Positions 1,511 through 15,020 of a stretch of DNA of 32,442 nucleotides are shown here, in pieces (within the stretch, counting starts at the first letter, position 1; every line of letters starts with the position of its first letter). This DNA is from an uncultured Lachnospiraceae bacterium (lineage in GTDB: Bacteria; Bacillota; Clostridia; Lachnospirales; Lachnospiraceae): assembly GCA_902790935.1 (NCBI GenBank), contig CADATP010000023.1:1-32442 (forward strand). The letters run 5' to 3'. The position numbers and the translations under genes were made by a program. A model generated the notes under the pieces. The model worked only from the letters and a program-made list of their open reading frames with translations, did not search any database and had not been told where the DNA came from.

Positions 1511-1565
1511 TGACACAGGGGGACGGGGTTGGGGGGTCATTTTTGGCCCCAACTCCGTCCCTCGG
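1511..1565. repeat. REP-like repeat R1, inverted pair with 15-bp stem
   Basis: One monomer runs 1511-1541 (TGACACAGGGGG ... GGGGTCATT) and an inverted partial partner 1545-1565 (GGCCCCAACTCCGTCCC). GGGACGGGGTTGGGG at 1520-1534 pairs with CCCCAACTCCGTCCC at 1547-1561, with one G-T wobble and a 12-nt loop. It fills the gap between the convergent pnuC remnant and yqeY-like gene, so it could act as a bidirectional terminator. Confidence 0.85.
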
Positions 1566-1569
1566 CGCT

Positions 1570-2007
1570 CTATCCCTGTAATTTTGCCACAACTTCGTTT
1601 ATTACCTTGCCGTCTGCCTTCCCCTTAAGCTCTCCCATAACAGCCTTCATTATCTGGCCTTTGTTTCCGGTGGCAATGACATCAGCAAACTTTTCTTTAA
1701 GTATTGCCTCAACTTCTTCTGCCGAAAGCATCTTAGGCGCATACTCCTCAAAAACCTTAAGTCTGGCTTCGTATTCAGCTTTAAGTTCTGCTCTTGAATC
1801 AGGGCAGGTCTCTATCTGTTCCTTAACGCTCTTAATCTCTTTAAGGATTGCCTGATCCGTCATTTCATCGGGAATATTTTCACGGCATCCCGCATCTATC
1901 GCAAGTTTTTTCGCCGCGGATACAAGAGTAGAAATAGCATCCTTTCTCGCTTTATCATGATCCTTCATTGCCTGCATCATATCTTTTTGTAAAGTTGTAA
2001 ACTGCAT
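1570..2007 (-). CDS. GatB/YqeY domain protein
   Basis: Small soluble protein of about 145 residues in the YqeY family, which resembles the C-terminal tRNA-binding tail of GatB. The exact role of stand-alone YqeY is not settled; a link to tRNA or amidotransferase function is inferred from the domain. Charged helices predominate, and typical family features are visible: KARKDAISTLVSAAKK near the N terminus, then ILKEIKSVKEQIE, and the C-terminal NKGQIMKAVMGELKGKADGK segment. The ATG at 2007 is chosen because GGAGG lies eight bases upstream; the TTG at 2022 would place that ribosome site inside the coding region. The gene ends a few bases from repeat R1 and stands alone between R1 and R2. Confidence 0.85.
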   Translation of the reverse strand: MQFTTLQKDMMQAMKDHDKARKDAISTLVSAAKKLAIDAGCRENIPDEMTDQAILKEIKSVKEQIETCPDSRAELKAEYEARLKVFEEYAPKMLSAEEVEAILKEKFADVIATGNKGQIMKAVMGELKGKADGKVINEVVAKLQG

Positions 2008-2060
2008 CTTTTTATCCTCCAAAATAATTTGCTCCCTTGATTATACCACAATATTCCGAC

Positions 2061-2092
2061 AATGAACCCCCAACTCCGTCCCCCTGTGTCAT
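2061..2092. repeat. REP-like repeat R2
   Basis: Single monomer AATGAACCCCC ... CTGTGTCAT. The bases TCA at 2089-2091 are, on the minus strand, the TGA stop of the MATE gene. The left flank ATTCCGACAATGAA resembles the spacer of the paired elements R6 and R7, suggesting R2 is the remaining half of such a pair. Confidence 0.85.
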
Positions 2093-3447
2093 CGAGACAG
2101 TTCTTTTAAGACAGTGACAGACATGATAACAACGGCTATCATAGAGACAATATCAGCTATAGGCGCTGAGAATAAAGCCCCCTTAACCCCAAAGAAAATC
2201 GGAAGGATTATTGCTAAGGGCACGCTGAGAGCAAAATCCCTTAAAAGAGATAATCCCATAGACATAACGGGTTTTCCGAGAGCCTGCAAGAAAACGCTGA
2301 CAGCTTTTTGAATGCAGGTAAGGACAATCATCGACAGGAAAAGTCGAAAGGCCAAAACCGCAAACTCATTATACAGACCATCCTCACTTCCAAAAATTGC
2401 TGTAATCTGAAGCGGAAAGATTTCAAAAAGTAAAAGTGAAACAATACCAACGATGGCTTCCGCTTTTACGATCGTAAAAAATATTTCTTTTACTCTCGCT
2501 TTTTCTCCGGCACCGTAGTTATAACCAATTACCGGCTGCGAACCGGCTGCTATTCCGATGCATACGGAAACAACAATCTGGAAAACTTTCATTACGATTC
2601 CCACAACGGTAAGCGGTATATCAGCTCCATACTTGCTCTTGGCACCGTAGTACACAAGCACATTGTTCATAACTCCCATTATGACAACAATTGAAATCTG
2701 AGTAAGAAAACTGCTTATTCCTAAGGGCAGGAACCTGCCGATCATCTTCCCGGAAGGAATAAAACTCTTTGCAATTAGTTTCACGGACTTCGCGTGACTA
2801 ATATATATGATACCGCAAATTGCCGTAACAATCTGACCTATAATAGTGGCAAGAGCAGCGCCTCTCATTCCCCAGCCAAGTACAAAAATAGCAATGGGGT
2901 CAAGAATAACGTTTATTACGCATCCTGCGAGAGTTGACAGCATAGCAAATTTAGGGCTCCCGTCTGCTCTTATGATTGAATTCAACCCATTTCCGACTAC
3001 AAAAAAAGGTATTCCGATAATAATGTAGTTAAAGTACTCGTTTGCATATGGGAAATTGCTTTCTGTTGCTCCAAATGCGGTTAATATCTGCGTCTTTAAT
3101 ACAGCGAATAAAACCATCATGATTATTCCCATAGCTATAAGCAAAGTCACAGCGTTTCCGACGCTTTTTGTTGCGCTTTCAAGGTCTTTCTTCCCTTGGC
3201 AAAGACTTAGAAAAGCAGCGCATCCGTCACCGATAAGGAGTGCAATTGCCAATGAAATGATTGTTATCGGAAAGACAACATTTGTCGCGCCGTTACCCAA
3301 ATAACCGATTCCACGGCCTATAAAAATCTGGTCAACGATATTGTAAAGCGCTGAGACAAGAAGGGACAGGATGCAGGGAATAGAAAATTTCAGGATAAGC
3401 TTTCCGATTCTTTCTTCAGCTAAATAATTGTTTGCATTTTGATTCAT
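2089..3447 (-). CDS. MATE family multidrug/cation exporter
   Basis: Integral membrane antiporter of the MATE family, MepA-like branch, 452 residues, close to the usual 450. These proteins export cationic drugs or metabolites using a sodium or proton gradient. Visible family features are KLILKFSIPCILSLLVSALY near the N terminus followed by NIVDQIFIGRGIG, and the repeat of that pattern in the second half (IGRFLPLGISSFLTQISIVV). GSQPVIGYNYGAGEKARVK occurs where MepA-type proteins carry their conserved P-x-x-G-x-N-Y-G-A. About twelve hydrophobic helices alternate with short loops. The ATG at 3447 follows GGAGGT with good spacing. The leader holds a terminator-like hairpin directly before the ribosome site. 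The stop codon lies inside repeat R2. Substrate unknown. Confidence 0.92.
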   Translation of the reverse strand: MNQNANNYLAEERIGKLILKFSIPCILSLLVSALYNIVDQIFIGRGIGYLGNGATNVVFPITIISLAIALLIGDGCAAFLSLCQGKKDLESATKSVGNAVTLLIAMGIIMMVLFAVLKTQILTAFGATESNFPYANEYFNYIIIGIPFFVVGNGLNSIIRADGSPKFAMLSTLAGCVINVILDPIAIFVLGWGMRGAALATIIGQIVTAICGIIYISHAKSVKLIAKSFIPSGKMIGRFLPLGISSFLTQISIVVIMGVMNNVLVYYGAKSKYGADIPLTVVGIVMKVFQIVVSVCIGIAAGSQPVIGYNYGAGEKARVKEIFFTIVKAEAIVGIVSLLLFEIFPLQITAIFGSEDGLYNEFAVLAFRLFLSMIVLTCIQKAVSVFLQALGKPVMSMGLSLLRDFALSVPLAIILPIFFGVKGALFSAPIADIVSMIAVVIMSVTVLKELSR

Positions 3448-3458
3448 TTTTTACCTCC

Positions 3459-3498
3459 AAAAAAATACGCATGCAAAGGTCCTCACTTCACATGCGTA
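3459..3498 (-). terminator. Terminator-like hairpin in the MATE leader (attenuator candidate)
   Basis: On the minus strand TACGCATG (3498-3491) pairs perfectly with CATGCGTA (3473-3466) across a 17-nt loop, followed by seven T (3465-3459) and then immediately the GGAGGT ribosome site of the MATE gene. Intrinsic terminator geometry inside a 5' leader suggests conditional read-through. Confidence 0.6.
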
Positions 3499-3510
3499 CA
3501 GTTACAACCG

Positions 3511-3541
3511 GGCCACCAGGAAAAGGCGACCAAATATTATA
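3511..3541 (-). promoter_or_regulatory. MATE -10 box and first leader hairpin
   Basis: TATAAT on the minus strand at 3541-3536 would start the transcript near 3530. The -35 region is poor. The RNA would begin with GGTCGCC (3531-3525), which can pair with GGTGGCC (3517-3511) over a 7-nt loop, with two G-U pairs. I did not match this 83-nt leader to any riboswitch class I know. Confidence 0.4.
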
Positions 3542-3641
3542 TTTTAATCTGTTTCACTTATATTTTATGGATTTCTCCGCTTTTACGTAATCGTGATTTT
3601 TCACAAATATTTCTCGTTTTAGCAAAATATCATGCGCGGAT

Positions 3642-3673
3642 TTTGAACCCCCAACCCCGTCCCCCTGTGTCAT
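3642..3673. repeat. REP-like repeat R3, upstream flank of the RAYT gene
   Basis: Monomer TTTGAACCCCC ... CTGTGTCATT, with the AACCCCGTCCCCC core. It lies about 15 bp before the RAYT -35 box and, with R4, brackets the transposase gene. Confidence 0.85.
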
Positions 3674-3687
3674 TTTTCATTTACCTC

Positions 3688-3716
3688 TTGATTTTTTTAT
3701 AAGGCATGTGTATAAT
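3688..3716 (+). promoter_or_regulatory. RAYT promoter
   Basis: TTGATT (3688-3693) and TATAAT (3711-3716) are separated by 17 bp. The predicted start near 3723 leaves a leader of about 45 nt that begins at a short hairpin, TGCAAC-TTG-GTTGCA (3722-3736). Confidence 0.7.
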
Positions 3717-3767
3717 GCACTCTGCAACTTGGTTGCAAAACAAACAAATATTTATGGGGGAGAATAT

Positions 3768-4547
3768 ATGCCTAGAAAATCTAGAACTCTAAGTTCAACG
3801 GGCATATATCATATCGTTCTTCGATCTGTTAATAAGCAGATCATCTTTGAGGAAGAGTCTGATTATAAAAAATTCCTTTACATTTTGTCAGATTACAAAA
3901 GGAAATACGATATTGAGATATATGCTTACTGTCTAATGGACAACCACATTCACATTTTACTTAATTCTGCACCGGATAAGCTTTCGCTTTTTTTCCTAAG
4001 TTTAGAAACGAAATTCGTGAAATGGTACAATAATAAATACAGACGGTCGGGACATCTTTTTCAGGACCGATTTCACAGCTTTGTTATCGAGGATAACGAC
4101 GCTTTTCTTTCGGTGCTCTTTTACATCCACAACAATCCTGTAAAGGCAAACATTTGCAAATTTCAAACTGATTATCGTTGGAGCAGCGCAAATGCATATT
4201 ATGGTCAGGAAAACCCAATCGTCAACACATCTTTTGCTTACGAAATCGTAGGAATAAAGGAGTCGCTCTTTAGATATTTTGCTACTCAAAACGGTTCAGC
4301 AGGCGACAGATTCTTTGAAAATGATCACAAAGAAAGATTGTTTTATTTAACAGATGAAAAAGCACTTGAAGTATATCATGCCGTAACAGGACTGCCTTCA
4401 ACATCTGCTGCCGATAATCTTCCGAGAACTTTGCGCAATAACTTTATCCGCAAGCTGAGAAGAAAAGGTGTATCGTCAAAACAAGTTTCAAGACTTATGG
4501 GTGTTTCAGAATCCACTGTAAAAAGGATCAGCAGGTCGCCAAAATGA
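3768..4547 (+). CDS. REP-associated tyrosine transposase (RAYT, IS200-like Y1 family)
   Basis: Single-strand HUH endonuclease of the Y1 transposase family, 259 residues. The N terminus PRKSRTLSSTGIYHIVLRS is typical of RAYTs. The metal-binding HUH pair is H60-I-H62 in YCLMDNHIHILL. The probable nucleophile is Y119 in LFYIHNNPVKAN, followed by DYRWSSANAY. SGHLFQDRFHS is also a family hallmark. After residue about 220 comes a C-terminal helix-turn-helix (KLRRKGVSSKQVSRLMGVSE). The ATG at 3768 is preferred over 3708 because it follows a GGGGGAG ribosome site and the promoter -10 box overlaps the upstream codons. The gene is flanked by repeats R3 and R4, and its TGA stop (4545-4547) is inside R4. 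RAYTs are known to bind and cut REP sequences and are usually single-copy domesticated genes; that this one acts on the repeats here is inferred. Confidence 0.9.
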   Translation: MPRKSRTLSSTGIYHIVLRSVNKQIIFEEESDYKKFLYILSDYKRKYDIEIYAYCLMDNHIHILLNSAPDKLSLFFLSLETKFVKWYNNKYRRSGHLFQDRFHSFVIEDNDAFLSVLFYIHNNPVKANICKFQTDYRWSSANAYYGQENPIVNTSFAYEIVGIKESLFRYFATQNGSAGDRFFENDHKERLFYLTDEKALEVYHAVTGLPSTSAADNLPRTLRNNFIRKLRRKGVSSKQVSRLMGVSESTVKRISRSPK

Positions 4548-4571
4548 CCCCCCAACCCCTGTCCCTGCCAT
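4543..4571. repeat. REP-like repeat R4 (degenerate), downstream flank of the RAYT gene
   Basis: Monomer AATGACCCCCCAACCCC followed by TGTCCCTGCCAT, a decayed right end compared with CTGTGTCATT. Bases 4545-4547 are the TGA stop of the transposase. Confidence 0.7.
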
Positions 4572-4595
4572 GATCTTAATATCAACAAAGATCAT
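4570..4595 (+). terminator. Weak hairpin downstream of RAYT
   Basis: ATGATCTT (4570-4577) is an exact inverted repeat of AAGATCAT (4588-4595) with a 10-nt loop. There is no U tract, so termination activity is uncertain. Confidence 0.35.
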
Positions 4596-4628
4596 AAAGG
4601 AATGCATTGTAAAAAGGGTGAAATGAAC

Positions 4629-4658
4629 TTGACTTAATAAATATTATATATATATAAT
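4629..4658 (+). promoter_or_regulatory. Promoter of the GtrII-like gene
   Basis: TTGACT (4629-4634) and TATAAT (4653-4658) with an 18-bp AT-rich spacer. AAGGAG ends about ten bases before the ATG at 4701. Confidence 0.65.
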
Positions 4659-4700
4659 TCTTATGTCTTTCTTATCTAGTTTTCAGAAGGAGAATAACTC

Positions 4701-6353
4701 ATGGCAAATAACCTGCAAGTATTCAAAGAGCTTAAAAAAAATATACTTTCTTTTCCGATATGGTCACTACTTTCCATATTTATTGTTGCTTTCATTGCCC
4801 ATGGCAGTATGATCTTTTCAAATGTAATCGGAATCGATACCGAAGCAGCAATTTTAGGAATTGAAGCCTATGACGGACAAGGAAGGCAAGGTATCCTGTG
4901 GATCAGAAATCTTTTGGGAATGACCAAATTTAACCTCTGGCTTACTAATTCTCTGACCTTCTTTTTGTTAATTTTTGTGCCCCTTTTCTTTTTTGCAGCC
5001 ATAATGATTCAGAAAAAAGAACTTAAAAATCTCCTGTTCCCATTTTGTATTATATTCATAGTATCACCTTACTGGGCATGCCAGTTGTACTTCTTAAGTC
5101 AAAGTGTCCCAGTACTTATTTCTTTATTATTAATCCCTTTGATCGATATCTTGATAAGGTTATCAATAAACAGCAAAGTACCCGAAAAAATATGCCTGTT
5201 GCTTTTAAGTTCAGCACTGTTTCAGTTGGTAGTAAGCACTTATCAGCTTAACATGATCATTTATGTGACATATGTATGCTGCACATTTGCGATTGCTTCT
5301 CTTCATGAAAAAGAATCCTTTAAGAAACAGATCATATTTCTTGCTACCCAGGCTGTATTTGTTATAGCAGGTTTTGTGATATACGAGGCCATTACAGCAT
5401 TATTCTATTCTCAATACTCCTCTTACCTCACAGAACAGATCATTTGGGCACAAGTAGGGATCAAGATGGGAATCCTGAATATTTTGCGCGTGATCAAAGC
5501 TGTTTTAAAAGGATCAGAGTTATATAGTTTTCTGTATGTACCGCTATGTCTGATTACCTTTGCCCTTACTGTCATCAACTGCTTTAAAACGCGAGAAAAA
5601 ATATCTCAATATTTACTACCTGTTTTATGCGAATTATTTGTATTTGCTTCACCGTTTTTCTTTGTCCTTTTATTCGGAAGCGAAGTAAGCCCACGAATGA
5701 GATATATTTTTCCAATTACTGAAGCACTTGTACTTCTATTTTGTTATTCGGAATTTATCTTCTTTTTTGATAAATGTCGTAGTATAAAACGAGTAACGAT
5801 CTTTAAGTCGGTTCTCATAATAGCTTCCTGCATCCTGTTGTTTATTGACTCCATGAAAGGACTCAATTACACGACACGTTTGTACTACACCAATGAATAT
5901 AGATTTGATCAAGAAAAACTAATTGCCAAAGATCTGAAAAAAGATCTCGATCAGTTCTTTATAGATAACAATCTTCCCGAGGACGAAAGAAACCAAGTTG
6001 TATTTCTTGGGGATGTAAATATAACTTACAACGATATGTGCCTACCCGGCTATGCCACCATAGGAAGCTCCTCTATAAACTGGGACTCAAACAGAATCCT
6101 AAGAGGACGTATATATAAGTTTTTAAAGACCTGCGGATATCCTATCGGAGATGCACCATACTTCTCCGATGGCGCTACCATTGCCTTCAGATACTACTTT
6201 GACGAATACTTCGGTGCAAAAGTTGATGCAATGCCTGCATACCCTTATGATGGATATATCTCAGAAGTACGCGATGATGAACTGGGGCTATATTATTACA
6301 TAGTTAAACTTGGTAATAACTGGAGGAAACCTGAACTACTCCCTCCTGAATAA
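4701..6353 (+). CDS. Polytopic membrane protein, GtrII-like glucosyltransferase family
   Basis: Protein of 550 residues with about ten to eleven hydrophobic helices in residues 20-400 and a soluble C-terminal domain of roughly 150 residues, probably extracellular. The first loop after helix one reads SNVIGIDTEAAILGIEAYDG then QGRQGILWIR. An acidic pair soon after the first helix, followed by a G-R-W-like segment, is the pattern of GtrII-type glucosyltransferases (PF14264), which transfer glucose from a polyprenyl carrier to surface glycan. That family assignment is from memory of the pattern, not a search. The C-terminal region contains VVFLGDVNITYND and ends NNWRKPELLPPE. It has its own promoter and a good AAGGAG ribosome site. 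It may be a horizontally acquired surface-glycan gene, as it stands alone next to the RAYT locus and is AT-richer than its neighbours. Confidence 0.6.
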   Translation: MANNLQVFKELKKNILSFPIWSLLSIFIVAFIAHGSMIFSNVIGIDTEAAILGIEAYDGQGRQGILWIRNLLGMTKFNLWLTNSLTFFLLIFVPLFFFAAIMIQKKELKNLLFPFCIIFIVSPYWACQLYFLSQSVPVLISLLLIPLIDILIRLSINSKVPEKICLLLLSSALFQLVVSTYQLNMIIYVTYVCCTFAIASLHEKESFKKQIIFLATQAVFVIAGFVIYEAITALFYSQYSSYLTEQIIWAQVGIKMGILNILRVIKAVLKGSELYSFLYVPLCLITFALTVINCFKTREKISQYLLPVLCELFVFASPFFFVLLFGSEVSPRMRYIFPITEALVLLFCYSEFIFFFDKCRSIKRVTIFKSVLIIASCILLFIDSMKGLNYTTRLYYTNEYRFDQEKLIAKDLKKDLDQFFIDNNLPEDERNQVVFLGDVNITYNDMCLPGYATIGSSSINWDSNRILRGRIYKFLKTCGYPIGDAPYFSDGATIAFRYYFDEYFGAKVDAMPAYPYDGYISEVRDDELGLYYYIVKLGNNWRKPELLPPE

Positions 6354-6402
6354 GGATAAATGACGCCTGGTGTCAAAATTACTTTCTTTTATAGGTTCTA
6401 CT

Positions 6403-6433
6403 GGACCCCCGGAGACGGGGGTGCTGTGTCATT
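6403..6433. repeat. REP-like repeat R5 (B type)
   Basis: Monomer GGACCCCCGGAGACGGGGG followed by TGCTGTGTCATT. A short related palindrome, TGACGCCTGGTGTCA, lies at 6361-6375 and may be the remnant of a partner. TCA at 6429-6431 is the minus-strand stop of the GNAT gene. Confidence 0.75.
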
Positions 6434-7481
6434 TATCTAGAATATACACTTCGGATTCGAAGGTTTCGCTGCCATCGCTTTTGCTGTAGAAAGAATCGTG
6501 GTCATACTTCATTCCCAGTTTTTTCATTACAGCGGCGCTCCCAGTATTGGCCTTTGCGCATTCCCCTTCAAATGAATGCGCTCCGTAAGTCCTTACCGCG
6601 TGATCCATCATCGCTTTTATACCCTCCGTCGTATAACCCTTTCCCCAATCCTCGTATCTGTTAACATAGGAAAGTGTCCACACGTCCCTTGATTTATCGT
6701 GGTTTAAAGCGTATATTCCAACTGCATGCCCGTCATTTTTCGCCGTAACAAGCATCAGTATATTAACCTTTGAATTTGGATCCTTTTTCGGCAGCCAGAA
6801 AAGCGTTTCTTCCGGGTTTTTACACGCTGATCCCATAAGATACTTATAAACTCTCTCATCCATATCCCAGGCAGCCATCGCCTTGTAATCGTTCGGCATC
6901 AGCCGCCTTAAGATCAGCCTTTCTGTCTCTACCGTTTCTTCGTTTAACGTTATCCAGTACCGCTTTTCCTTCGCACCGGTTTCCGAGGCGACCTCCGACT
7001 CAAAAACGCCGCCATTATTAATGATCGACTTTTCACTTCCGTAATTGTCCGAATCGCAGACCATCAAAACCTTATTAATTCCAAGATTTCTGCACTCTTC
7101 CAGCGCAAGCCCAATCATAGCCGTTGCGTATCCTTTTCGTCTTTCAGACGGCCTTATTCCGTCGCCGATATGACCGCCTGTCAGATAATTATTCCCGTTC
7201 AGATAATGCCGTATATTAACAGCCCCGACCAGCCTGTCACAGTCTAAATCCAGACAAAAAAAGGTAGAGTCCGGCACCAATCCATCTTTTTCTTCCTTTA
7301 CTTCAAGCTCCTCAAGGTATTTATCAAAGTCATGAGGATCATTCTTAAAAATTGCCCAGGGTGAATGGTTCGTATTATTTACTTCGATATCTGTCTTCCA
7401 TTCATCAAGCATCTCGATGAGCTTATCTTTATATTCATAACTCATCTTGACGAGCTTTACATTAAGCTTTTTCCTATTCAA
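6429..7481 (-). CDS. Tandem GNAT N-acetyltransferase (two domains)
   Basis: Two acetyl-CoA dependent GNAT domains fused in 350 residues. The N-terminal domain (about 1-178) carries the acetyl-CoA motif R114-R-K-G-Y-A-T in IRPSERRKGYATAMIGLALE. The C-terminal domain (about 183-350) begins ETERLILRRLMPNDYKAMA like RimJ/RimL-type enzymes and has a second motif, WGKGYTTEGIKAMM, at 279-292. RimJ/L-type domains acetylate protein N termini or small amines; the acceptor here is unknown. The start is TTG at 7481, with AAGGAG seven bases upstream; the next in-frame ATG (residue 13) has no ribosome site. The stop TGA lies inside repeat R5. Confidence 0.85.
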   Translation of the reverse strand: MNRKKLNVKLVKMSYEYKDKLIEMLDEWKTDIEVNNTNHSPWAIFKNDPHDFDKYLEELEVKEEKDGLVPDSTFFCLDLDCDRLVGAVNIRHYLNGNNYLTGGHIGDGIRPSERRKGYATAMIGLALEECRNLGINKVLMVCDSDNYGSEKSIINNGGVFESEVASETGAKEKRYWITLNEETVETERLILRRLMPNDYKAMAAWDMDERVYKYLMGSACKNPEETLFWLPKKDPNSKVNILMLVTAKNDGHAVGIYALNHDKSRDVWTLSYVNRYEDWGKGYTTEGIKAMMDHAVRTYGAHSFEGECAKANTGSAAVMKKLGMKYDHDSFYSKSDGSETFESEVYILDK

Positions 7482-7498
7482 AACCGGTCTCCTTTTTA

Positions 7499-7589
7499 AA
7501 TGAACCCCCGGGACGGGGTTGGGGTGTCATTATCAGACGATGCAAAAAGTATTCTGACAATGAACCCCCACCCCCGTCCCCCTGTGTCA
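7499..7589. repeat. REP-like repeat R6, composite pair
   Basis: R6a (7499-7531) reads AATGAACCCCCGGGACGG then GGTTGGGGTGTCATT and can fold on itself through AATGA/TCATT and CCCC/GGGG. A 27-nt spacer with TCAGA ... TCTGA inverted arms leads to R6b (7559-7589), AATGAACCCCCACCCCC then GTCCCCCTGTGTCA. The element lies between the 5' end of the GNAT gene and the 3' end of the GH2 gene, ending four bases from the latter's stop codon. Confidence 0.85.
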
Positions 7590-7592
7590 AAA

Positions 7593-10166
7593 TCATAAGC
7601 AGCTGATTTCGATAGATTCACTTGAGCCAAGCTTCGGCGCTTCCACCAAAAGAGTAACATCCCCGCTTTCGTAGCCGGACCTTACTATAGCCATAGCGCG
7701 TCCTTTGTAGGTCTTTGTTTTACCCTCTTTATAGTTTTCGTCTGTGATGGGATTTCCAGATCCAAATCCCGAAAGAAGAGCCACATCACAACGTTTTCCT
7801 TCACTCGTTACCTTTTCGATTTCAAGGCATCCCTCTATTTCCACCTCGGCATCGGGCACAAGACGTCCCTCGGAATCTACAACCTCGATTCCCACATAAG
7901 AAGCGTCATGTCCATTAGCCTTTAGAATAGTCTTTTCAGGCACAAGTCTTATTCCTACGGCATCACCGACGGTTACAAGTTCATCTCTTGATACTTCCCG
8001 TCCACTGCAGTAGCTTATTGCCTCAACCTTTCCCGCTTCGTATACAGTCTCAAACCTTGCGCAATACGGCATTGGCATCCTTTTTCCCTTATAATCAAAC
8101 TGGTTTTCTCTTTCAAAGTTAACCGGCTTTCTTCCGATGCTCTTTCCGTTTACAAGTACTTCAACCTCTTCGGCGCCTGACACTACGACAATCTCAATAT
8201 TCTTTCCCTCAGATCCCTTATAGCTCCAGCTTCTCCTAAAATCAGGAAATCCCCACATGGAAGTCAATTCATTTTTATCAAACACATCAGGATGCATCGT
8301 AAAAAGCTTCGTTTCTCCGTTTCCAAAAACTACGCTCCTGTACTCTCCCTGAGGCCTTACTTCCCCGTTTATATCAAAGTCCGCATCATTAGCCAGTCTC
8401 CATGGGAAGTGGGTAGCCTTCCATGGCATAAGCTCCCAATGATCCTTAGGTGCTTTCGGATCGCTCGGATCAAAATAAGCCGATTTTCCGATTCCCGCTT
8501 CGCCCAAATAATCCCAGGCCGTCCAGGTAAACTCGCCGATACAGTAATCTCTCTTTAAAACCTCCGGCCAGCGAAATCCTACTTCTCTCGGGAAGTTCTC
8601 GCTTCCGAGAATTACCCTCTCCGGGTACAGCTCATGATCTCTCTCGTAGAGATCTTCCATATAATTGTATCCGACAACATCAAGAGAATTTGCAAAGCTT
8701 TCTGTATTCTTCTCCCAGAAATCTGCCCCAGAATTGTCCGACGCGTTCTGATTCTGGTTTTGTCCCTTTGCCAATAAATCGTCAAGTCCGGCCCAAAGAG
8801 AGCAGATACCGTTGCTTACAGGCCTTGAAGGGTCAAGTTCTTTTATCTTGCGGGCAAGAGCGTCCGCCAGCATATATCCGTCTCCAACGCCGCCTCTTTC
8901 CGGGATTTCATTTCCCGTAGACCACATAATAACCGATGGATGTATCCGGTCTCTTTTTACAAATGCAGTAAGATCCTTTTCCCAATCCGTATCAAAGAAT
9001 TGATGATAATCTCCGCCACGCTTTCCGATACCCCAAGCATCAAAAGCCTCATCGAAGATATACATTCCTTCCCTGTCGCAGGCTTCTACCAAAGCCGCTG
9101 ACGGCGGGTTGTGAGCCGTACGGATGGCATTAAATCCTACCTCTTTAAGTTTTCTGACCTTACGGGCCTCCGCTTCGTATAATGAAACCGCTCCGAGAAG
9201 TCCGTTATCATGGTGCACGCAGCCCCCTTTAAGTTTTACGGTCTTACTATTAATCTGAAGGCCTCGTATAGAATCCGCCGAAATCGTGCGTATTCCGAAA
9301 AGTACAATCTCTTCATCAATCTGCGTTGTCTCGTCTATTGCCTCACTGCGAACGAGATGTGTTCTGAATACGCCAAGATCCTTTACAGACACCTTAACCT
9401 GATATAAATTTGGCTCATCGGTATCCCACAGCTTCGGATTCTTTACATTTAGAACAACCTTTGCAAAAGCTGTTTTGCAGCCGCCTACCTGCAGTACCTG
9501 CTTAGCAGATGCTACCGGCTCGCCTTGGAGAGCGGCACTTCCAAAGCTTTCTCTTCCCATATCCTCATACAGGGATACCGTAACTTCTGCTATATGATTA
9601 AGTGTTGTATCGTTTTTAACCTCTACTTCTCCCTCTGTAAAAGCATATCCGTTGGTTACTTCCTTGGTCCTTAAATAGATTCCGTCCGGCACAATATGAA
9701 CCTTCGATCCATGAAGTAAGCTGACGCTTCTGTAAAGTCCTGAGCCCGTATACCATCTTGAGGCAGGTTGCATTGAAGTATTAAGGTTTACCGTGATCCT
9801 GTTTTCCTCACCAAAGGTTACATAATTAGTTATATCAACCGTAAAGGGAGCGTATCCGTAATGGCATCCGCCGACCCTGCTTCCGTTAATATCTACGACA
9901 GCATTCATCATTGCGCCGTCGAATGAAAGGATTACGCTGTCATTTTCCCATTCTTTTGGAATAAGTACATACTTTGTGTAATTTGTCTCCCCGCCTGTAA
10001 AATATCCGGAATCAGATCCCGCCGGTGCGCTTTCAGATACCGCTGTATCCAGCATCCCGTCATGAGGCAGGTTTACGACCTCCCCCGGATTGCTGTCAAG
10101 AATCCCTACAGAATCTAGAAGTCCCCTTCTGAATGTCCAATTATCATCAATTAATGTTTTTCTCAT
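7593..10166 (-). CDS. Glycoside hydrolase family 2 beta-galactosidase-like enzyme
   Basis: Probable exo-acting beta-galactosidase of family GH2, 857 residues, without a signal peptide and therefore cytoplasmic. The sugar-binding jelly-roll domain covers about residues 1-155 (NLPHDGMLD, GYAPFTVDITNYV, WYTGSGLYRSV). An Ig-like domain follows to about 295, then a TIM barrel from about 305 (KLKGGCVHHDNGLLGA). The acid/base is E420 in MWSTGNEIPE, and the nucleophile is likely E523 in VILGSENFP. GEFTWTAWDYLGEAGIGK at 544-561 completes the active site. C-terminal Ig-like domains carry DASYVGIEVVDSEG. A QNQNQN stretch lies at 469-474. Galactosidase is the likeliest activity, but related GH2 members are glucuronidases or mannosidases. 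The ATG at 10166 follows GGGAAGGG; repeat R7 begins only 17 bases upstream. Confidence 0.85.
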   Translation of the reverse strand: MRKTLIDDNWTFRRGLLDSVGILDSNPGEVVNLPHDGMLDTAVSESAPAGSDSGYFTGGETNYTKYVLIPKEWENDSVILSFDGAMMNAVVDINGSRVGGCHYGYAPFTVDITNYVTFGEENRITVNLNTSMQPASRWYTGSGLYRSVSLLHGSKVHIVPDGIYLRTKEVTNGYAFTEGEVEVKNDTTLNHIAEVTVSLYEDMGRESFGSAALQGEPVASAKQVLQVGGCKTAFAKVVLNVKNPKLWDTDEPNLYQVKVSVKDLGVFRTHLVRSEAIDETTQIDEEIVLFGIRTISADSIRGLQINSKTVKLKGGCVHHDNGLLGAVSLYEAEARKVRKLKEVGFNAIRTAHNPPSAALVEACDREGMYIFDEAFDAWGIGKRGGDYHQFFDTDWEKDLTAFVKRDRIHPSVIMWSTGNEIPERGGVGDGYMLADALARKIKELDPSRPVSNGICSLWAGLDDLLAKGQNQNQNASDNSGADFWEKNTESFANSLDVVGYNYMEDLYERDHELYPERVILGSENFPREVGFRWPEVLKRDYCIGEFTWTAWDYLGEAGIGKSAYFDPSDPKAPKDHWELMPWKATHFPWRLANDADFDINGEVRPQGEYRSVVFGNGETKLFTMHPDVFDKNELTSMWGFPDFRRSWSYKGSEGKNIEIVVVSGAEEVEVLVNGKSIGRKPVNFERENQFDYKGKRMPMPYCARFETVYEAGKVEAISYCSGREVSRDELVTVGDAVGIRLVPEKTILKANGHDASYVGIEVVDSEGRLVPDAEVEIEGCLEIEKVTSEGKRCDVALLSGFGSGNPITDENYKEGKTKTYKGRAMAIVRSGYESGDVTLLVEAPKLGSSESIEISCL

Positions 10167-10182
10167 ATCTGCCCTTCCCTAA

Positions 10183-10273
10183 AATGACCCCCCGGGACGG
10201 AGTTGGGGTGTCATTATCAGACTATATCCAAACTATTCTGAAAATGAACCCCCAACTCCGTCCCCCTGTGTCA
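10183..10273. repeat. REP-like repeat R7, composite pair
   Basis: R7a (10183-10215) AATGACCCCCCGGGACGG then AGTTGGGGTGTCATT, spacer with TCAGA ... TCTGA arms, R7b (10243-10273) AATGAACCCCCAACTCC then GTCCCCCTGTGTCA. Same architecture and spacing as R6 although the spacer bases have diverged. It sits in the leader region of the GH2 gene, downstream of metE. Confidence 0.85.
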
Positions 10274-10289
10274 AAATTTATAGGTATAT

Positions 10290-10342
10290 TATAAGCCCCA
10301 CGCAACTGATTGTAAAAACATATCTGATGCGTAGGGCTTATA
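10290..10342 (-). terminator. Hairpin downstream of metE
   Basis: TATAAGCCCCACGCA (10290-10304) pairs with TGCGTAGGGCTTATA (10328-10342), 14 pairs with a single C/A mismatch. It starts 26 bases after the metE stop codon. The following bases on the minus strand are AT-rich without a long U run, while a run of seven T follows on the plus strand after ten bases. It could stop transcripts from metE. Confidence 0.55.
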
Positions 10343-10368
10343 AATAGGGTCAGTTTTTTTATTCTGTT

Positions 10369-12639
10369 TTAAGCCTCTTTACGAAGTAATCTTGCCGCCT
10401 CTACCATATTGACAAGACTGTGCCTGGTCTCCTCCTCGCCTCTCGTCTTCAAACCGCAGTCCGGATTTACCCAGAGCTTTTCTGCCGGTACTTTCTCAAG
10501 CATCTTTTTAAGCGCTCCCAGGATTTCCTGCGTTGAAGGAATTCTTGGAGAGTGGATATCGTACACTCCGGGACCTGTCTCAGTCTCAAAATTATACTTT
10601 TTCAGCGCATCTAAAATAAGCAGATCTGACCTCGATGCCTCAAATGTAATAACATCAGCATCCATATTGTCAATGGCAGGAATAATATCCGTGAATTCGC
10701 TGTAGCACATATGTGTATGGATCTGAGTCTCTTTCTTTACACCGCTGTGGACCAGGCGGAATGCAGGGATAACGAAATCAAGATACTCGCTGTTCCAATC
10801 GGACTTCCTCAAAGGAAGCTTCTCTCTAAGTGCAGCCTCATCGATTTGGATGATCTTAATTCCGTTTGCTTCAAGATCAAGCACCTCATCTCTGATAGCC
10901 AAAGCGATCTGTGTCATTGATTCCTTTATACTGATATCCTCTCTCGGGAAAGACCAGTTAAGTATGGTCACAGGGCCGGTCAGCATCCCCTTTACAGGAA
11001 GCTTCGTCAACGACTGCGCATACACAGACCATTCCACCGTGATAGGTTTTTTACGGCTCACATCACCCCAGATAATGGGCGGCTTAACACACCTTGTTCC
11101 GTAGGACTGAACCCAGGCTTTTTCCGTAAAAAGATATCCTGACAGGGACTCACCGAAGTACTCAACCATATCGTTTCGCTCATACTCTCCGTGAACAAGC
11201 ACGTCCAGTCCTACACCTTCCTGCCACTCGATGGCACGCTTTATCTTTTCGCGGTTAAACTCCTTATAGCTGTCTAAAGAAATCTCGCCTTTTCTGTAGG
11301 ATGAACGGTTCTTTTTAACATCAGCCGTCTGCGGAAACGAACCGATGGTTGTCGTAGGATACTTTGGCAGTTTAAGGTAATCCTTCTGAATCTGCTGCCT
11401 TACCTTCCTCTCGGGAAGCCTTACATAATCACTCTCTTTTATCTTAGAAATACGTTCTTTAACCTCCGCATCCTCGCAATCTCTTCCTTCCCTGAAAAGC
11501 TGCAGATTCTTCCTATAAGCATCAGCATTCTCCCTGTTCTCATCCTCAACAAGGTCGGCGAGTTCCTTAAGTTCGACCAGCTTTTCCAAAGCAAACGCAA
11601 AATGCTTTTTATACTCAGGCAAAAGCTTATCCTCCCCATCAAGGGTAAAGGGAACATGAAGCAGCGAACATGATGTGGAAAGAACAGTATTTATCCCCTG
11701 CGTCTTTAAGTGATCAAGCACATTAAGTGTCTTGGTATAATCATTTTTCCAGATGTTCTTGCCGTTTACAAGTCCCGCAAAAAGCGTTTTTTCCTTCGGA
11801 AATCCATTCTTTTTGATTAGTTCAAGCGTCTTTTTTCCCTCTATAAAATCAAGCCCGATTCCGTCAAAAGGCATGCTTATCAGCTCGTCATAAATATCTC
11901 TCACATCTCCGAAATATGTCTGGAGCAGAATTTTCACGTCCTTCTTGTCTGCCAGGATTTTCTCGTATAAAGAGGTAAAAAATCTCTTATCCGTTTCATC
12001 AAGGTTCCTGACAAGAGCCGGCTCTTCAAACTGGATCCACTCAGCTCCCCTTTCCCTTAATCCGGCGATAATCCTTCGGTATACCCCACTCAAGTTCTCA
12101 AGGTAATCTTCGCGCTTCTTTGTTCCGGTGTATCTGCAAAGTGATAAAAGAGTATATGCTCCGATAACCGTTGGTTTTGTTCCTACTCCTAAGTCCTTAG
12201 CCTCCTGATACTCATCAAATACCTTTTCAGACGAAAGGCTGATCTTTGTATCATCCTCCAGCTCCGGCACTATATAATGATAATTCGTATTAAACCACTT
12301 CTTCATTGCGAGGGCTTTTACGTCTCTTCCCTCTTTTTGATACCCTCTTGCCATAGCAAAATACGTAGCCTTATCACTGAGAGAAAGCTCCCTGTATCTG
12401 GCGGGTACAATACCGCACATCACAGCTGTATCCAAAAGGCAGTCATAATATGAAAAATCGTTTGAAGATATAAAATCTATCCCCGCTTCTTTCTGGTATG
12501 AAAAATGCTGCGAGCGGAGATCCTTTGCGATAGCTTCAAGCTCCTTTTCCTCCATCTCCCCCTTGAAATATTTTTCCAATGCAAATTTTAATTCTCTGAA
12601 AGCTCCGATCCTGGGAAATCCGATTACTGATGTCAGCAT
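10369..12639 (-). CDS. metE: Cobalamin-independent methionine synthase MetE
   Basis: 5-methyltetrahydropteroyltriglutamate-homocysteine S-methyltransferase: transfers a methyl group from methyl-tetrahydrofolate to homocysteine in the last step of methionine synthesis, in the cytoplasm. The protein of 756 residues compares well with the E. coli enzyme (753). The N-terminal barrel starts [19 protein letters not shown]. The catalytic barrel has [17 protein letters not shown] and the zinc ligands H643 and C645 in [10 protein letters not shown]667 in ITFEASRSD and C728 in [10 protein letters not shown], each offset by exactly two from the E. coli residues. The ATG at 12639 is preferred because GGAGGAG is just upstream; the longer frame to 12711 would include that site. 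A divergent LysR gene and its likely operator lie upstream. No SAM riboswitch or T-box is visible. Confidence 0.97.
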
Positions 12640-12726
12640 AAATGTCTCCTCCTTTTTAGTTTTCCCTGTTGAATCGAGTATAAATCTGAATAAATCGGGG
12701 GTAAAATACAAAAAAATGTATATACT

Positions 12727-12776
12727 CCATAGATTTTACCTATGGTATATGCTATTATTTTCTTGATTTCTATGGT
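12727..12776. promoter_or_regulatory. LysR-type operator between metE and its regulator
   Basis: CCATAG (12727-12732) and CTATGG (12740-12745) form a palindrome with a 7-bp centre, fitting ATAG-N7-CTAT, the shape of the Firmicute MetR/MtaR box. A second CTATGGT (12770) is exactly 30 bp from the first (12740), three helical turns. The palindrome lies about where the -35 region of metE would be, upstream of TATACA on the minus strand. Confidence 0.6.
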
Positions 12777-12847
12777 GCATCAGATATCATCCTACGCGAT
12801 TTGTTGACAACATAAGCGCTTTACAAGTAAGAATACGGAGAACAAAT

Positions 12848-13747
12848 ATGACTTTAAAACAACTGCAGTACATCTCTGTAATTGCGGAAACCGGGAACAT
12901 CACCGAAGCGGCAAAAAAGCTTTTTATCGCACAGCCAAGCCTGACCTCTGCGCTTCATGAACTGGAAAAAGAATACGGGATCACCATTTTTACCCGCGGC
13001 AGCAAGGGCGTGGAACTAACTCCGGAAGGGGATGAATTCTTAGGATATGCAAGACAGATCTTAGAGCAGGCAGGCCTGATGGATGAACGATATACCGGAA
13101 AGCAAAGAGGGAAGATGCGTTTTTGTGTTTCGGCGCAACATTACTCCTTTGCGGTAGAAGCCTTTGTAGAGCTTCTAAAAGAATACGGCGGAGATAAATA
13201 CGAGTTTCATATGCGAGAAACGCAGACATACGAGATCATAAGTGATGTCGCACATCTGCGCAGTGAAATAGGAATTCTTTATTTAAACCCTTTTAATGAA
13301 ACGATAATAAAAAAAGCTCTTAAAGACAACGAGCTCACATTTCACAAGCTCTTTACTGCAAAGCCCCATGTCTTTATCGGAAAAGACTCACCTCTGGCCA
13401 AAAAGCGCTCCCTTACGCTTGAAGACTTAAAGCCATATCCCAGGCTTTCGTATGAGCAAGGCAGCCACAATTCCTTTTACTTTTCCGAGGAGATACTAAG
13501 TACCGTGGATTGTGATAAAGAGATCGTGGTCTGCGACCGCGCCTCACTTTTTAATATGCTCATCGGTTTAAATGGCTACACCATCTGCAGCGGTGTGATA
13601 AACGAGGAATTAAACGGCCCAAATATCATCGCAAAGCCCCTCAAAGTTGAGGATCATATGGAGATTGGCTATATTCTGCCCGCTGCCTTCCCCTCAAGCC
13701 ACCTTACCGAAAAATACATTAGCATCTTAAAGCGCCTCTTAAAATGA
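12848..13747 (+). CDS. LysR family regulator, probable activator of metE
   Basis: Transcription regulator of 299 residues. The winged helix-turn-helix covers residues 1-60 (LKQLQYISVIAETGNITEAA then KKLFIAQPSLTSALHELEKE). The co-inducer domain covers about 88-295. Divergent placement next to metE and an ATAG-N7-CTAT palindrome between them point to a MetR/MtaR/CmbR-like controller of methionine or cysteine genes; homocysteine or O-acetylserine would be the expected effector, an inference. CGGAG precedes the ATG by seven bases. A TTGACA (12804) with TAAGAA (12828) is a possible promoter but would leave almost no leader. The TGA stop at 13745-13747 belongs to the repeat R8. Confidence 0.88.
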   Translation: MTLKQLQYISVIAETGNITEAAKKLFIAQPSLTSALHELEKEYGITIFTRGSKGVELTPEGDEFLGYARQILEQAGLMDERYTGKQRGKMRFCVSAQHYSFAVEAFVELLKEYGGDKYEFHMRETQTYEIISDVAHLRSEIGILYLNPFNETIIKKALKDNELTFHKLFTAKPHVFIGKDSPLAKKRSLTLEDLKPYPRLSYEQGSHNSFYFSEEILSTVDCDKEIVVCDRASLFNMLIGLNGYTICSGVINEELNGPNIIAKPLKVEDHMEIGYILPAAFPSSHLTEKYISILKRLLK

Positions 13748-13810
13748 ACCCCCAACCCCGTCCCCCTGTGTCATTTTTTTGACCCCCGGGGACGGAGGTG
13801 CTGTGTCATT
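13743..13810. repeat. REP-like repeat R8, pair of A and B types
   Basis: R8a (13743-13775) AATGAACCCCCAACCCCG then TCCCCCTGTGTCATT, four T, then R8b (13780-13810) TGACCCCCGGGGACGG then AGGTGCTGTGTCATT. CCGTCCCC of the first can pair with GGGGACGG of the second. It separates two convergent genes and supplies the lysR stop codon; its last two bases overlap the TAA stop of the rhodanese/TtcA-like gene. Confidence 0.85.
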
Positions 13811-14948
13811 AATAATTGTCAAGGAAGTGGTGTCTTACACCGTTTTGCTTGTATTCGATGACAGTGTCGAGGTTAACATTTTCTACACTTCTAAATATAT
13901 TGGACTCTACAAAAGGATTGGTCTTTTTAAGCTCAGCAATAAGTTTCTTCGTCTCAAGCCTTTTCGAAGAAGTCGTTCCGTCCTCATGGCAGGTTGAGCA
14001 GGTCTCCGTAAAGTGGCACGCGCACTGCAAAAAGTGCAGATTGTTGTAATCTCTCCACGCGCAGATATCGCTCTCCCTCACAAGATAAAGGGGGCGTATA
14101 AGCTCCATCCCCTCGAAATTGGTACTGTGAAGCTTCGGCATCATAGTCTGGATCTGGGCTCCCTGGAGCATCCCCATAAGGATCGTCTCGATAACATCAT
14201 CATAATGATGCCCAAGAGCGATCTTGTTGCAGCCAAGTTCCTTTGCCTTACTGTAAAGGTAACCTCGCCTCATCCTCGCGCAAAGATAGCAGGGATTCTT
14301 ATCTATCGTATCAACCGCATCAAAAATATCGCTCTCAAAAATCGTAATCGGGATTCCCAGAGCCTTGGCATTACTCTCTATCAGCTTACGATTGTCGTCA
14401 TTATATCCGGGATCCATGACGAGAAATTTCAGTTCAAAATTGCACTGTCTGTGTCTTTGGATCTCCTGAAAAAGCTTGGCCATAAGCATTGAGTCTTTTC
14501 CACCGGAAATACAAACGGCAATTCTATCCCCTTCTTCAATAAGCTTATATGTCTTGCAGGCTTTCGCAAATGGCGTAAAGATAGGCTTATGGAACTTCTT
14601 TCGGATACTCTCCTCTGCCTTGTGCTGTTTGTCATCGCCCTCATCCGCAAGAGAGGACCTGACATATCCGATATAACCGCCTGCCAGGCTGTAGCAATCT
14701 CTTCCGTCAAAGCAGGGGCGTCCCTCTAACCAATGGGTCTTACGGCCTACCTCGCAGTATAAAACAAGTTTCTTCTCCTTCGGGATCTTATCAATAACGC
14801 TGTAAGCTCCCTCTGCGTCATTTTCAAAATCCGCGGAGACAGCTCCGCCAATCATTCCATAGGCTCTAAGCCCCTCATCCCTGATATCGATCAGTTCAAA
14901 GGAGCCGGGCTCGAGGTTCTTTAGTTCTTCGTATGTAATTTCTTTCAT
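13809..14948 (-). CDS. Rhodanese domain fused to TtcA-like PP-loop tRNA thiolase
   Basis: Protein of 379 residues. Residues 1-100 are a rhodanese-like domain (GSFELIDIRDE, active-site C65 in LVLYCEVGRKTHW, LAGGYIGY), able in this family to carry a persulfide. Residues about 120-379 are a TtcA-type ATP pyrophosphatase: PP-loop S148-G-G-K-D-S, C220-x-x-C223 in NPCYLCARMRRG, and ALGHHYDDVIETILMGMLQG. TtcA thiolates cytidine 32 of tRNA with an iron-sulfur cluster. A cysteine-rich stretch, C309-x-C311 ... C317-x-x-C320 in FLQCACHFTETCSTC, lies where TtcA has its third ligand. A plausible reading is that the rhodanese domain feeds sulfur to the thiolase domain. The ATG at 14948 is used because homology starts there; its ribosome site is weak (AGAAAG). 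The upstream extension to 15107 runs through repeat R9. Confidence 0.85.
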   Translation of the reverse strand: MKEITYEELKNLEPGSFELIDIRDEGLRAYGMIGGAVSADFENDAEGAYSVIDKIPKEKKLVLYCEVGRKTHWLEGRPCFDGRDCYSLAGGYIGYVRSSLADEGDDKQHKAEESIRKKFHKPIFTPFAKACKTYKLIEEGDRIAVCISGGKDSMLMAKLFQEIQRHRQCNFELKFLVMDPGYNDDNRKLIESNAKALGIPITIFESDIFDAVDTIDKNPCYLCARMRRGYLYSKAKELGCNKIALGHHYDDVIETILMGMLQGAQIQTMMPKLHSTNFEGMELIRPLYLVRESDICAWRDYNNLHFLQCACHFTETCSTCHEDGTTSSKRLETKKLIAELKKTNPFVESNIFRSVENVNLDTVIEYKQNGVRHHFLDNY

Positions 14949-14987
14949 TATGTAATGTCTTTCTATGCTTTCAATCTTGATCCGGAA

Positions 14988-15020
14988 AATGAACCCCCAA
15001 CCCCGTCCCCCGGTGTCATT
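14988..15020. repeat. REP-like repeat R9
   Basis: Monomer AATGAACCCCCAACCCCG then TCCCCCGGTGTCATT. It lies between the Xre gene and the rhodanese/TtcA-like gene. TCA at 15016-15018 is the minus-strand TGA stop of the Xre gene. This is the right-most copy in the window. Confidence 0.85.

Follow-up and report, generated by a model that had tools for sequence, protein, structure and literature searches.

Do RAYTs (REP-associated tyrosine transposases, REP standing for repetitive extragenic palindromic) spread the repeats that accompany them? A contig of an uncultured Lachnospiraceae bacterium (CADATP010000023.1 of assembly GCA_902790935.1; its whole length of 32,442 nucleotides is called the window here) raises this question, with one RAYT-type gene of the HUH/Y1 kind (3768-4547, plus strand) amid copies of a dispersed 29-bp repeat. 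The source genome (G000) is a metagenome-assembled genome (MAG) of 2.28 Mb in 94 contigs, 82.7% complete, of which the window is contig C23. We read the locus as a RAYT of the TIRYT type, i.e. one flanked by terminal inverted repeats (TIRs), the protein being an HUH/Y1 endonuclease for single strands with a C-terminal helix-turn-helix, together with the dispersed terminal elements that belong to it, which the protein would mobilise; we put the probability of this reading at about 0.8.

Repeat abundance and the RAYT gene

The strict pattern of the unit, TGA N8 CYCCGTCCC N6 TCA (29 bp), has ten matches in the window, all inside 1511-15018, and with up to three mismatches there are 11, against 1.22 expected in shuffled sequence; none of 100 shuffles got to 11. 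Genome-wide, the strict pattern finds 130 copies in the MAG and the reversed pattern none (0-2 matches per genome in another reversed control). A chance origin of the repeats is ruled out by the shuffles and the reversed patterns, and a purely local cluster by the 130 copies. An earlier reading of the letters alone, called the sequence-only reading below, had proposed a dispersed family from at least nine places in the window; at all nine that it named the element is indeed present, intact or decayed, and the repeats are not confined to this region.

Abundance goes with the gene. Among 31 genomes of the genus, the strict pattern occurs in six (G000 130 copies, G009 136, G025 54, G006 3, G022 3 and G002 1) and a close RAYT homologue in four (G000, G009, G025 and G006), that of G009 (L084) being 98% identical to the window protein. 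Twenty-five of the 27 genomes without a close homologue have no copy at all, the other two being G002 and G022 with the one and three copies just given. A looser pattern for the clade, TGR N6 GGGACGGRGYY N6 YCA, was sought in 39 genomes; it is present in all four carriers of the genus, in 28 of the 30 genomes with a RAYT of the same clade (at least 52% identity) and in none of the five with RAYTs at 39-42% identity. It is absent from G053 and G054, whose RAYT-flanking units have a slightly different core.

Across 397 genomes of the family, 29 have a match to the looser pattern and 11 carry a RAYT of the clade (at least 54% identity; the next full-length match stands at 47%). The units in these carriers number 108, 78, 59, 51, 37, 22, 19, 12, 12, 2 and 1. 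At least ten copies are found in nine of the 11 carriers and in none of the 386 other genomes (Fisher 9e-17, kinship ignored), at least one copy in all 11 and in 18 of the 386, there with a maximum of eight (Fisher 4e-14, kinship again ignored). Relatives without the gene, to which the sequence-only reading had pointed for comparison, are thus not equally rich in copies. A stop codon lies inside two of the 11 RAYT matches (G341 and G427), and G427 nonetheless has 37 units. Since the copies are abundant, in this sample, only in genomes with one RAYT clade, we suggest that the protein spreads or maintains the repeats.

The RAYT-type protein, its flanks and the core types

That 3768-4547 encodes a Y1/HUH protein could be confirmed: Pfam Y1_Tnp matches the product of 259 amino acids with E 3.9e-14, the sole match in the assembly at E <= 0.001. 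The HIH motif and the class 2 motif Y---NP are both present, with one catalytic tyrosine and the Y1 fold. All of 61 aligned proteins have H60, Y119, N123 and P124, and at least 90% of them have H62. The AlphaFold model (pLDDT 88.3, pTM 0.68) has helices between residues 196 and 255, and its top match in the PDB by Foldseek is TnpAREP of E. coli (4er8, E 1.7e-7), followed by the transposases of IS608 and ISDra2; compared by sequence only, 4er8 matches weakly (E 0.054). The C-terminal helix-turn-helix (HTH) is likewise weak by sequence (HTH_23, E 4.9e-4, 20.3 bits, below the Pfam cut-off of 24.6). The NCBI model for REP-associated tyrosine transposases (NF047646) gives 74.6 bits, below its cut-off of 80, and the NCBI IS200 model 21.9 bits with a cut-off of 55. 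By its motifs, its HTH and its flanks, the protein would best be placed in the TIRYT / TnpAY1 subclass 2.1 branch. The gene is probably kept by selection; its ratio of nonsynonymous to synonymous substitution (dN/dS) against G009 is 0.107, with 0.015-0.150 for 13 other genes of the window. A recent arrival of the RAYT alone had been suspected from the 97% identity of 3644-4565 to G009 and was dropped because dS is much alike in the gene that follows (0.052 vs 0.077).

Cores of the repeat were looked for in 300 bp before and 200 bp after each RAYT gene. They stand on both sides in 26 of the 30 clade loci, and all 26 have their nearest cores inverted, 23 in one sense and 3 in the opposite sense. 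The distances are nearly fixed: 27 of 28 clade loci have the upstream core 94-125 bp ahead of the start, and the downstream core follows the aligned coding end by 12-22 bp in 20 of 28 and by 7-27 bp in 23 of 28. GGGGAC/GTCCCC is found on both sides of 19 of the 28 clade loci and of 21 of 46 distant loci, with 0.2% and 0.4% at control positions. The flanking motif, GGGGACGG, is one letter off the GGGGWSAS described for TIRs. At the window gene, copy R3 (3644-3672, plus strand, an exact match) ends 95 bp ahead of the ATG, and the decayed copy R4 (4545-4570, plus strand, read from the sequence) overlaps the stop codon, whose TGA doubles as its first letters; in G009, the place equivalent to R4 holds a copy whose core is intact. 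Synteny with G009 stops at the upstream copy of the window RAYT, and G009 retains an outer, inverted upstream copy.

The core differs between RAYT lineages. Type A is GGGACGGRGYY, type B GGGACGGTNC and type C GGGACAGGT. On a quick RAYT tree of 74 rows, the 60 rows that could be labelled by their flanking core fall into six types with five changes, the minimum possible, a count that is supportive but not independent, as the types were defined after inspection of the flanks and it is partly circular. The 29 type-A rows all belong to a single branch (31 rows, SH-aLRT 100%), whose remaining two rows are unlabelled. With 'no label' taken as a state for the 14 unlabelled rows, 14 changes are needed, against 39.5 in shuffles. 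The tree omits seven rows with in-frame stops, the partial L115, L116, further L037, L084, L148, L150, L151 and L158, the distant Y1 loci L032, L033, L041, L042 and L045, and loci L231-L260. Some distant Y1 genes have other flanking motifs, GGGACAAAGTG... at L119 and L121 and GGTGCCTGTCACC at L041.

Inverted copies at near-fixed distances from the clade genes are also what an ordinary insertion sequence of the IS200/IS605 type would have, with the dispersed units as its solo ends (miniature inverted-repeat transposable elements, MITEs). We regard this as very unlikely: the assembly holds one gene copy against 130 units, the protein has the class 2 Y---NP motif, a weak C-terminal HTH and a score with the IS200 model far from the cut-off, and many units are arranged as pairs with a spacer of 31 bp (29-31-29), which are described below.

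Architecture and placement of the 29-bp unit

The anatomy of the unit was read from 385,243 bases, namely the window and 20 stretches of G000 picked around copies. Of 97 units parsed, 93 are exactly 29 bp long, and the length of 31-33 bp given in the sequence-only reading has to be corrected. Each unit has a core of 11 bp, AACCCCGTCCC (GGGACGGGGTT on the opposite strand), with few variants, between two variable ends of 9 bp (TGA.../...TCA). The ends AATGA and TCATT of the sequence-only reading were right in TGA and TCA; the AA (58 of 97) and TT (56 of 97) are frequent but lie outside the unit. Since the units were located by pattern, some of the constancy of the core and of TGA/TCA follows from the search itself. 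In less constrained searches, a 16-base piece had 85 matches with one mismatch permitted, 75 of them exact, and among 84 cores sought without their ends TGA stood as expected in 74 and TCA in 78.

The end words are few (TGAACCCC, TGACCCCC, TGACACAG and TGACACCC); 13 of 20 tabulated combinations occur, and a single one accounts for 39 of the 97 units. In a unit, the word on one side begins with TGR and that on the other side finishes with YCA; the words differ between genomes and occur in many combinations within one genome. G000 has, at L180:4325-4360, a G025-type unit (...CACTGACTCCGTCCCCATGGGTCA) next to one of its own type, and the G025-type unit is missing at the G009 site. At position 5 the two ends of a unit pair less often than expected, 0.21 against 0.47 in shuffles in G000 (48 distinct units; none of 2000 shuffles as low) and 0.34 against 0.49 in G009 (41 distinct units; P 0.04); a clear deficit was not found among distinct units at positions 4, 7 and 8. 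For the set of other genomes the shuffles pool genomes, and words peculiar to single genomes may lie behind a positive pairing signal at position 3. Conserved stem mismatches are required for the activity of E. coli REPs, according to PMC8266576; the mismatch at position 5 may be a parallel to these, though a parallel is not proof. Folded as single-stranded DNA, the commonest unit reaches 0 kcal/mol on either strand, so that no hairpin is predicted, and of five other 29-mers four reach -4.8 to -6.1 kcal/mol and one -2.9. Formation of a G-quadruplex is conceivable at most. A GTAG/GTGG foot, on either strand and in or within 8 bp of the unit, is found in merely 12 of 93 units.

Two inverted units often form a larger element. 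In G000, 20 of 31 neighbouring pairs (gap of at most 60 bp) have the G-strand unit first and the C-strand unit second, and 12 of the 31 are in this order and exactly 31 bp apart; in G009 these numbers are 21 and 15 of 32. The resulting 89-bp element, folded as DNA in one example, gives a single hairpin of -51.4 kcal/mol (z -17), and in 27 aligned elements 81.8% of the cells are paired, against 38-51% with a slid partner. The 31-bp spacer is quasi-palindromic; TCAGA and TCTGA stand close to its ends. Inverted units, a recurring spacer and one hairpin are features of REPINs.

Repeat clusters lie near the ends of genes. Among 57 clusters, set against open reading frames (ORFs) that were called greedily rather than by a gene finder, 11 overlap an ORF by more than 15 bp. 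The 39 clusters with two clear neighbours comprise 14 convergent, 20 tandem and 5 divergent arrangements, against 31, 241 and 28 in a background of 300 gene pairs (convergent enrichment, P 2e-5). Clusters lie at a median of 20.5 bp from a gene 3' end, 41 of 48 of them within 100 bp. This placement, together with the strong fold of the one 89-bp pair folded, would suit host regulatory or terminator hairpins maintained by selection where genes end, with the RAYT as just another adjacent gene. Hairpins of that kind are nevertheless an improbable explanation, with abundance confined to scattered genomes that have one RAYT clade, a core type that follows the RAYT tree, no predicted fold in the commonest single unit and inverted copies around every one of the 26 clade RAYTs with cores on both sides.

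In the window, ten intact copies and three decayed ones were counted. Besides R3 and R4, exact matches are found at 1511-1539 (minus strand), 2063-2091 (plus), 13745-13773 (plus, directly 3' of a gene end), 13780-13808 (minus) and 14990-15018 (plus; the second arm is present at the G009 site), and in two inverted pairs of 89 bp, 7501-7589 (7501-7529 on the minus and 7561-7589 on the plus strand) and 10185-10273 (10185-10213 minus and 10245-10273 plus). A half unit at about 1545-1564 (plus, core CCGTCCC at 1555) faces the 1511 copy, and the unit at 6403-6431 (minus) has two mismatches. No intact copy lies in the second half of the window; on average the genome has about one per 17.5 kb. The gene names MATE, GtrII, GNAT and GH2 come from Pfam, others are, as presumed from the translations, LysR, metE and TtcA-like genes, and 13809-14957 encodes a PP-loop ATPase-type protein and a rhodanese domain in one chain. 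Copies also stand at several contig ends of G000 (e.g. C6:65, C8:8, C30:19, C74:32 and C21:34329), and the assembly was probably broken by the repeats.

Turnover, related systems and a possible mechanism

Change at individual sites was followed between G000 (the window and 20 stretches) and G009 (20 stretches), all picked around copies and therefore not a random sample. From G000 to G009 both flanks were found for 22 of 50 clusters, of which 11 have equal copy numbers, eight different ones and three were scored as empty; in the reverse direction both flanks were found for 19 of 54, with 14 equal, five different and none empty. At the 13745 site of the window, G000 has two units and G009 one, the extra one beginning exactly at its TGA end and the neighbouring unit carrying a different end word. 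Switching of end words at orthologous sites was seen; an exchange of modules is not proven by it, because the words are one or two steps apart and the flanks differ by several percent.

Synteny between G000 and G009 breaks often at the repeats: 15 of 57 internal breaks are within 40 bp of a core, where 2.6% would be expected, a count that misassembly of the MAGs at 89-bp repeats could have inflated. In G010, which has no Y1_Tnp match, a glycoside hydrolase gene adjoins the PP-loop gene and a decayed unit lies where they meet; these blocks are apart in G000, where the same glycoside hydrolase gene (7601-10166 of the window) lies between the two 89-bp pairs. That gene is 96% identical to G010 (L263, L281) and 85% to G009, the PP-loop gene 88% and 91%, respectively. 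Perhaps a gene block was exchanged with its ends at elements; identity jumps are seen also between genes that have no element between them. Both the breaks and the junction in G010 would fit a history in which gene and repeats are co-inherited or co-transferred passengers and the units are spread by homologous recombination or segmental exchange instead of by the RAYT. We give this little credence; recombination alone leaves unexplained why nine of 11 carriers and none of 386 other genomes reach ten copies, and why the 29-31-29 spacing recurs, and the number of breaks is itself open to the inflation just mentioned.

A sister family, TGAAACA...GGAACCGTCCC...TGTTTCA (the TGAAACAGCGGAACCGTCCCCCTGTTTCA type), with units of 29 bp in the examples read, is present in seven genomes of the genus (G007, G011, G014, G015, G017, G027 and G030), with 8 to 31 matches per genome to a 16-base piece; loci L047, L050, L052, L053, L055, L062 and L066 of G007, G011, G014, G015 and G017 are examples. 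These are apparently orphan repeats.

Several observations weigh against action of the RAYT on its repeats. Co-occurrence of gene and repeats could reflect joint inheritance without any action, and the carriers G253 and G341 have just one and two copies. The R3 and R4 copies, which the sequence-only reading had taken to bracket the gene, are both there, but R4 is decayed and oriented as R3, so that the two nearest copies of the window RAYT are direct, unlike those of the clade. Compensatory covariation in the 89-bp pairs had to be rejected, the score being equalled in 298 of 500 shuffles. None of the three sites scored as empty in G009 is clean on inspection: two are artefacts of flank mapping (L174:5924 and L181:1915) and the third (L178:7031) also has altered flanks. 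In G010, the closest RAYT-less genome at the locus, there is likewise no clean empty site, the neighbourhoods being rearranged at elements. Finally, no Y1_Tnp match was found in the seven genomes of the sister family (MAGs of 68-91% completeness). There the gene may have been lost, the assemblies may be broken by the repeats, or the repeats may outlast their RAYT; as the sister family persists without a Y1_Tnp match, a RAYT may not be required for persistence.

Among known systems, the window fits the TIRYT / subclass 2.1 branch by protein features and flanks. In PMC3733652 (Di Nocera et al. 2013), RAYT-like genes are flanked by TIRs, several with GGGGWSAS, TIR families are moderately abundant and TIRYTs are considered possibly 'less productive players'. 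The likeness lies in a RAYT-like gene with inverted repeats, in a GGGG-based motif and in dispersed copies that in part form dimers and clusters; the locus described here differs in its 130 copies, the fixed 29-bp unit, ends that are mostly non-complementary and the strong association of gene and repeat. Subclass 2.1, according to PMC6006769 (Quentin et al. 2018), includes 291 of the 292 sequences in the RAYT group 1 that Bertels et al. defined and 20 of the 26 Di Nocera examples, with C-terminal HTH domains. HUH, Y---NP and a C-terminal extension of the HTH_23/HTH_28/DnaA-like kind are shared with the window protein; GGGAC-core elements flanking 19 of 28 clade and 21 of 46 distant loci are the difference.

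The REPs and REPINs of proteobacteria with RAYTs of groups 2-3 (PMC8266576, PMC8049555 and PMC3116915) also combine a RAYT, units in high copy number and inverted pairs. Here, in contrast, the GTAG/GTGG foot is rare, the commonest unit is unfolded, and a conserved core is central between variable ends. Of the REP-like family with a resident RAYT that the sequence-only reading had proposed, the association therefore stands and the proteobacterial type of REP does not, there being no GTAG foot and no fold in the commonest unit. Membership in the CGTC-tagged REPs was rejected too: as reported in PMC3733652, these families lack a dedicated transposase and CGTC is an unpaired terminal tag by a stem of 8-9 bp, whereas here it is inside the central core, and the likeness is superficial. 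The main text of PMC3733652 mentions neither Firmicutes nor Clostridi nor Butyrivibrio, and a word search in PMC2817692 met no Firmicutes, Clostridi or Bacillus. Searches of open-licence PMC papers brought up none that deals with repeats of this kind in Lachnospiraceae, though such papers may exist. What is new against the known branch is the copy number, the fixed unit, the end words and the tight association.

How might such a system work? Judged from the sequence patterns, the RAYT would recognise the core GGGACGGRGYY in single-stranded DNA, choose a strand, bind and cleave it near the TGA/TCA ends, and move, swap or join units. The units would settle or survive chiefly just downstream of genes, and two inverted units with the 31-bp spacer would form the 89-bp, REPIN-like element, for which a long hairpin is predicted in the single strand. 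More tentatively, one may speculate that the Bacillota RAYTs of this branch are an addressed system with clade-specific reading of the core, exchangeable 9-bp ends, a code and words that evolve separately, and the position-5 mismatch of the window's genome as strand signal, comparable to the stem bulge in E. coli REPs. In such a system the core would consist of GGGAC and four to six clade-specific letters, and a domesticated transposase would drive a REPIN-like population.

The strong association between gene and repeat contrasts with what two earlier surveys report: an automatic and manual search near subclass 2.1 genes yielded no REP-like sequences, the TIRs of Di Nocera et al. being noted (PMC6006769), and no obvious correlation between genes and repeats was reported for TIRs (PMC3733652). 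The presence of the repeats at some rearrangement points and contig ends is relevant to the assembly of rumen genomes. The association is found in one family of the Bacillota, in part in named isolates of Butyrivibrio, and makes the question whether RAYTs spread their repeats testable in another phylum, with natural pairs of protein and core from which a recognition code might be read.

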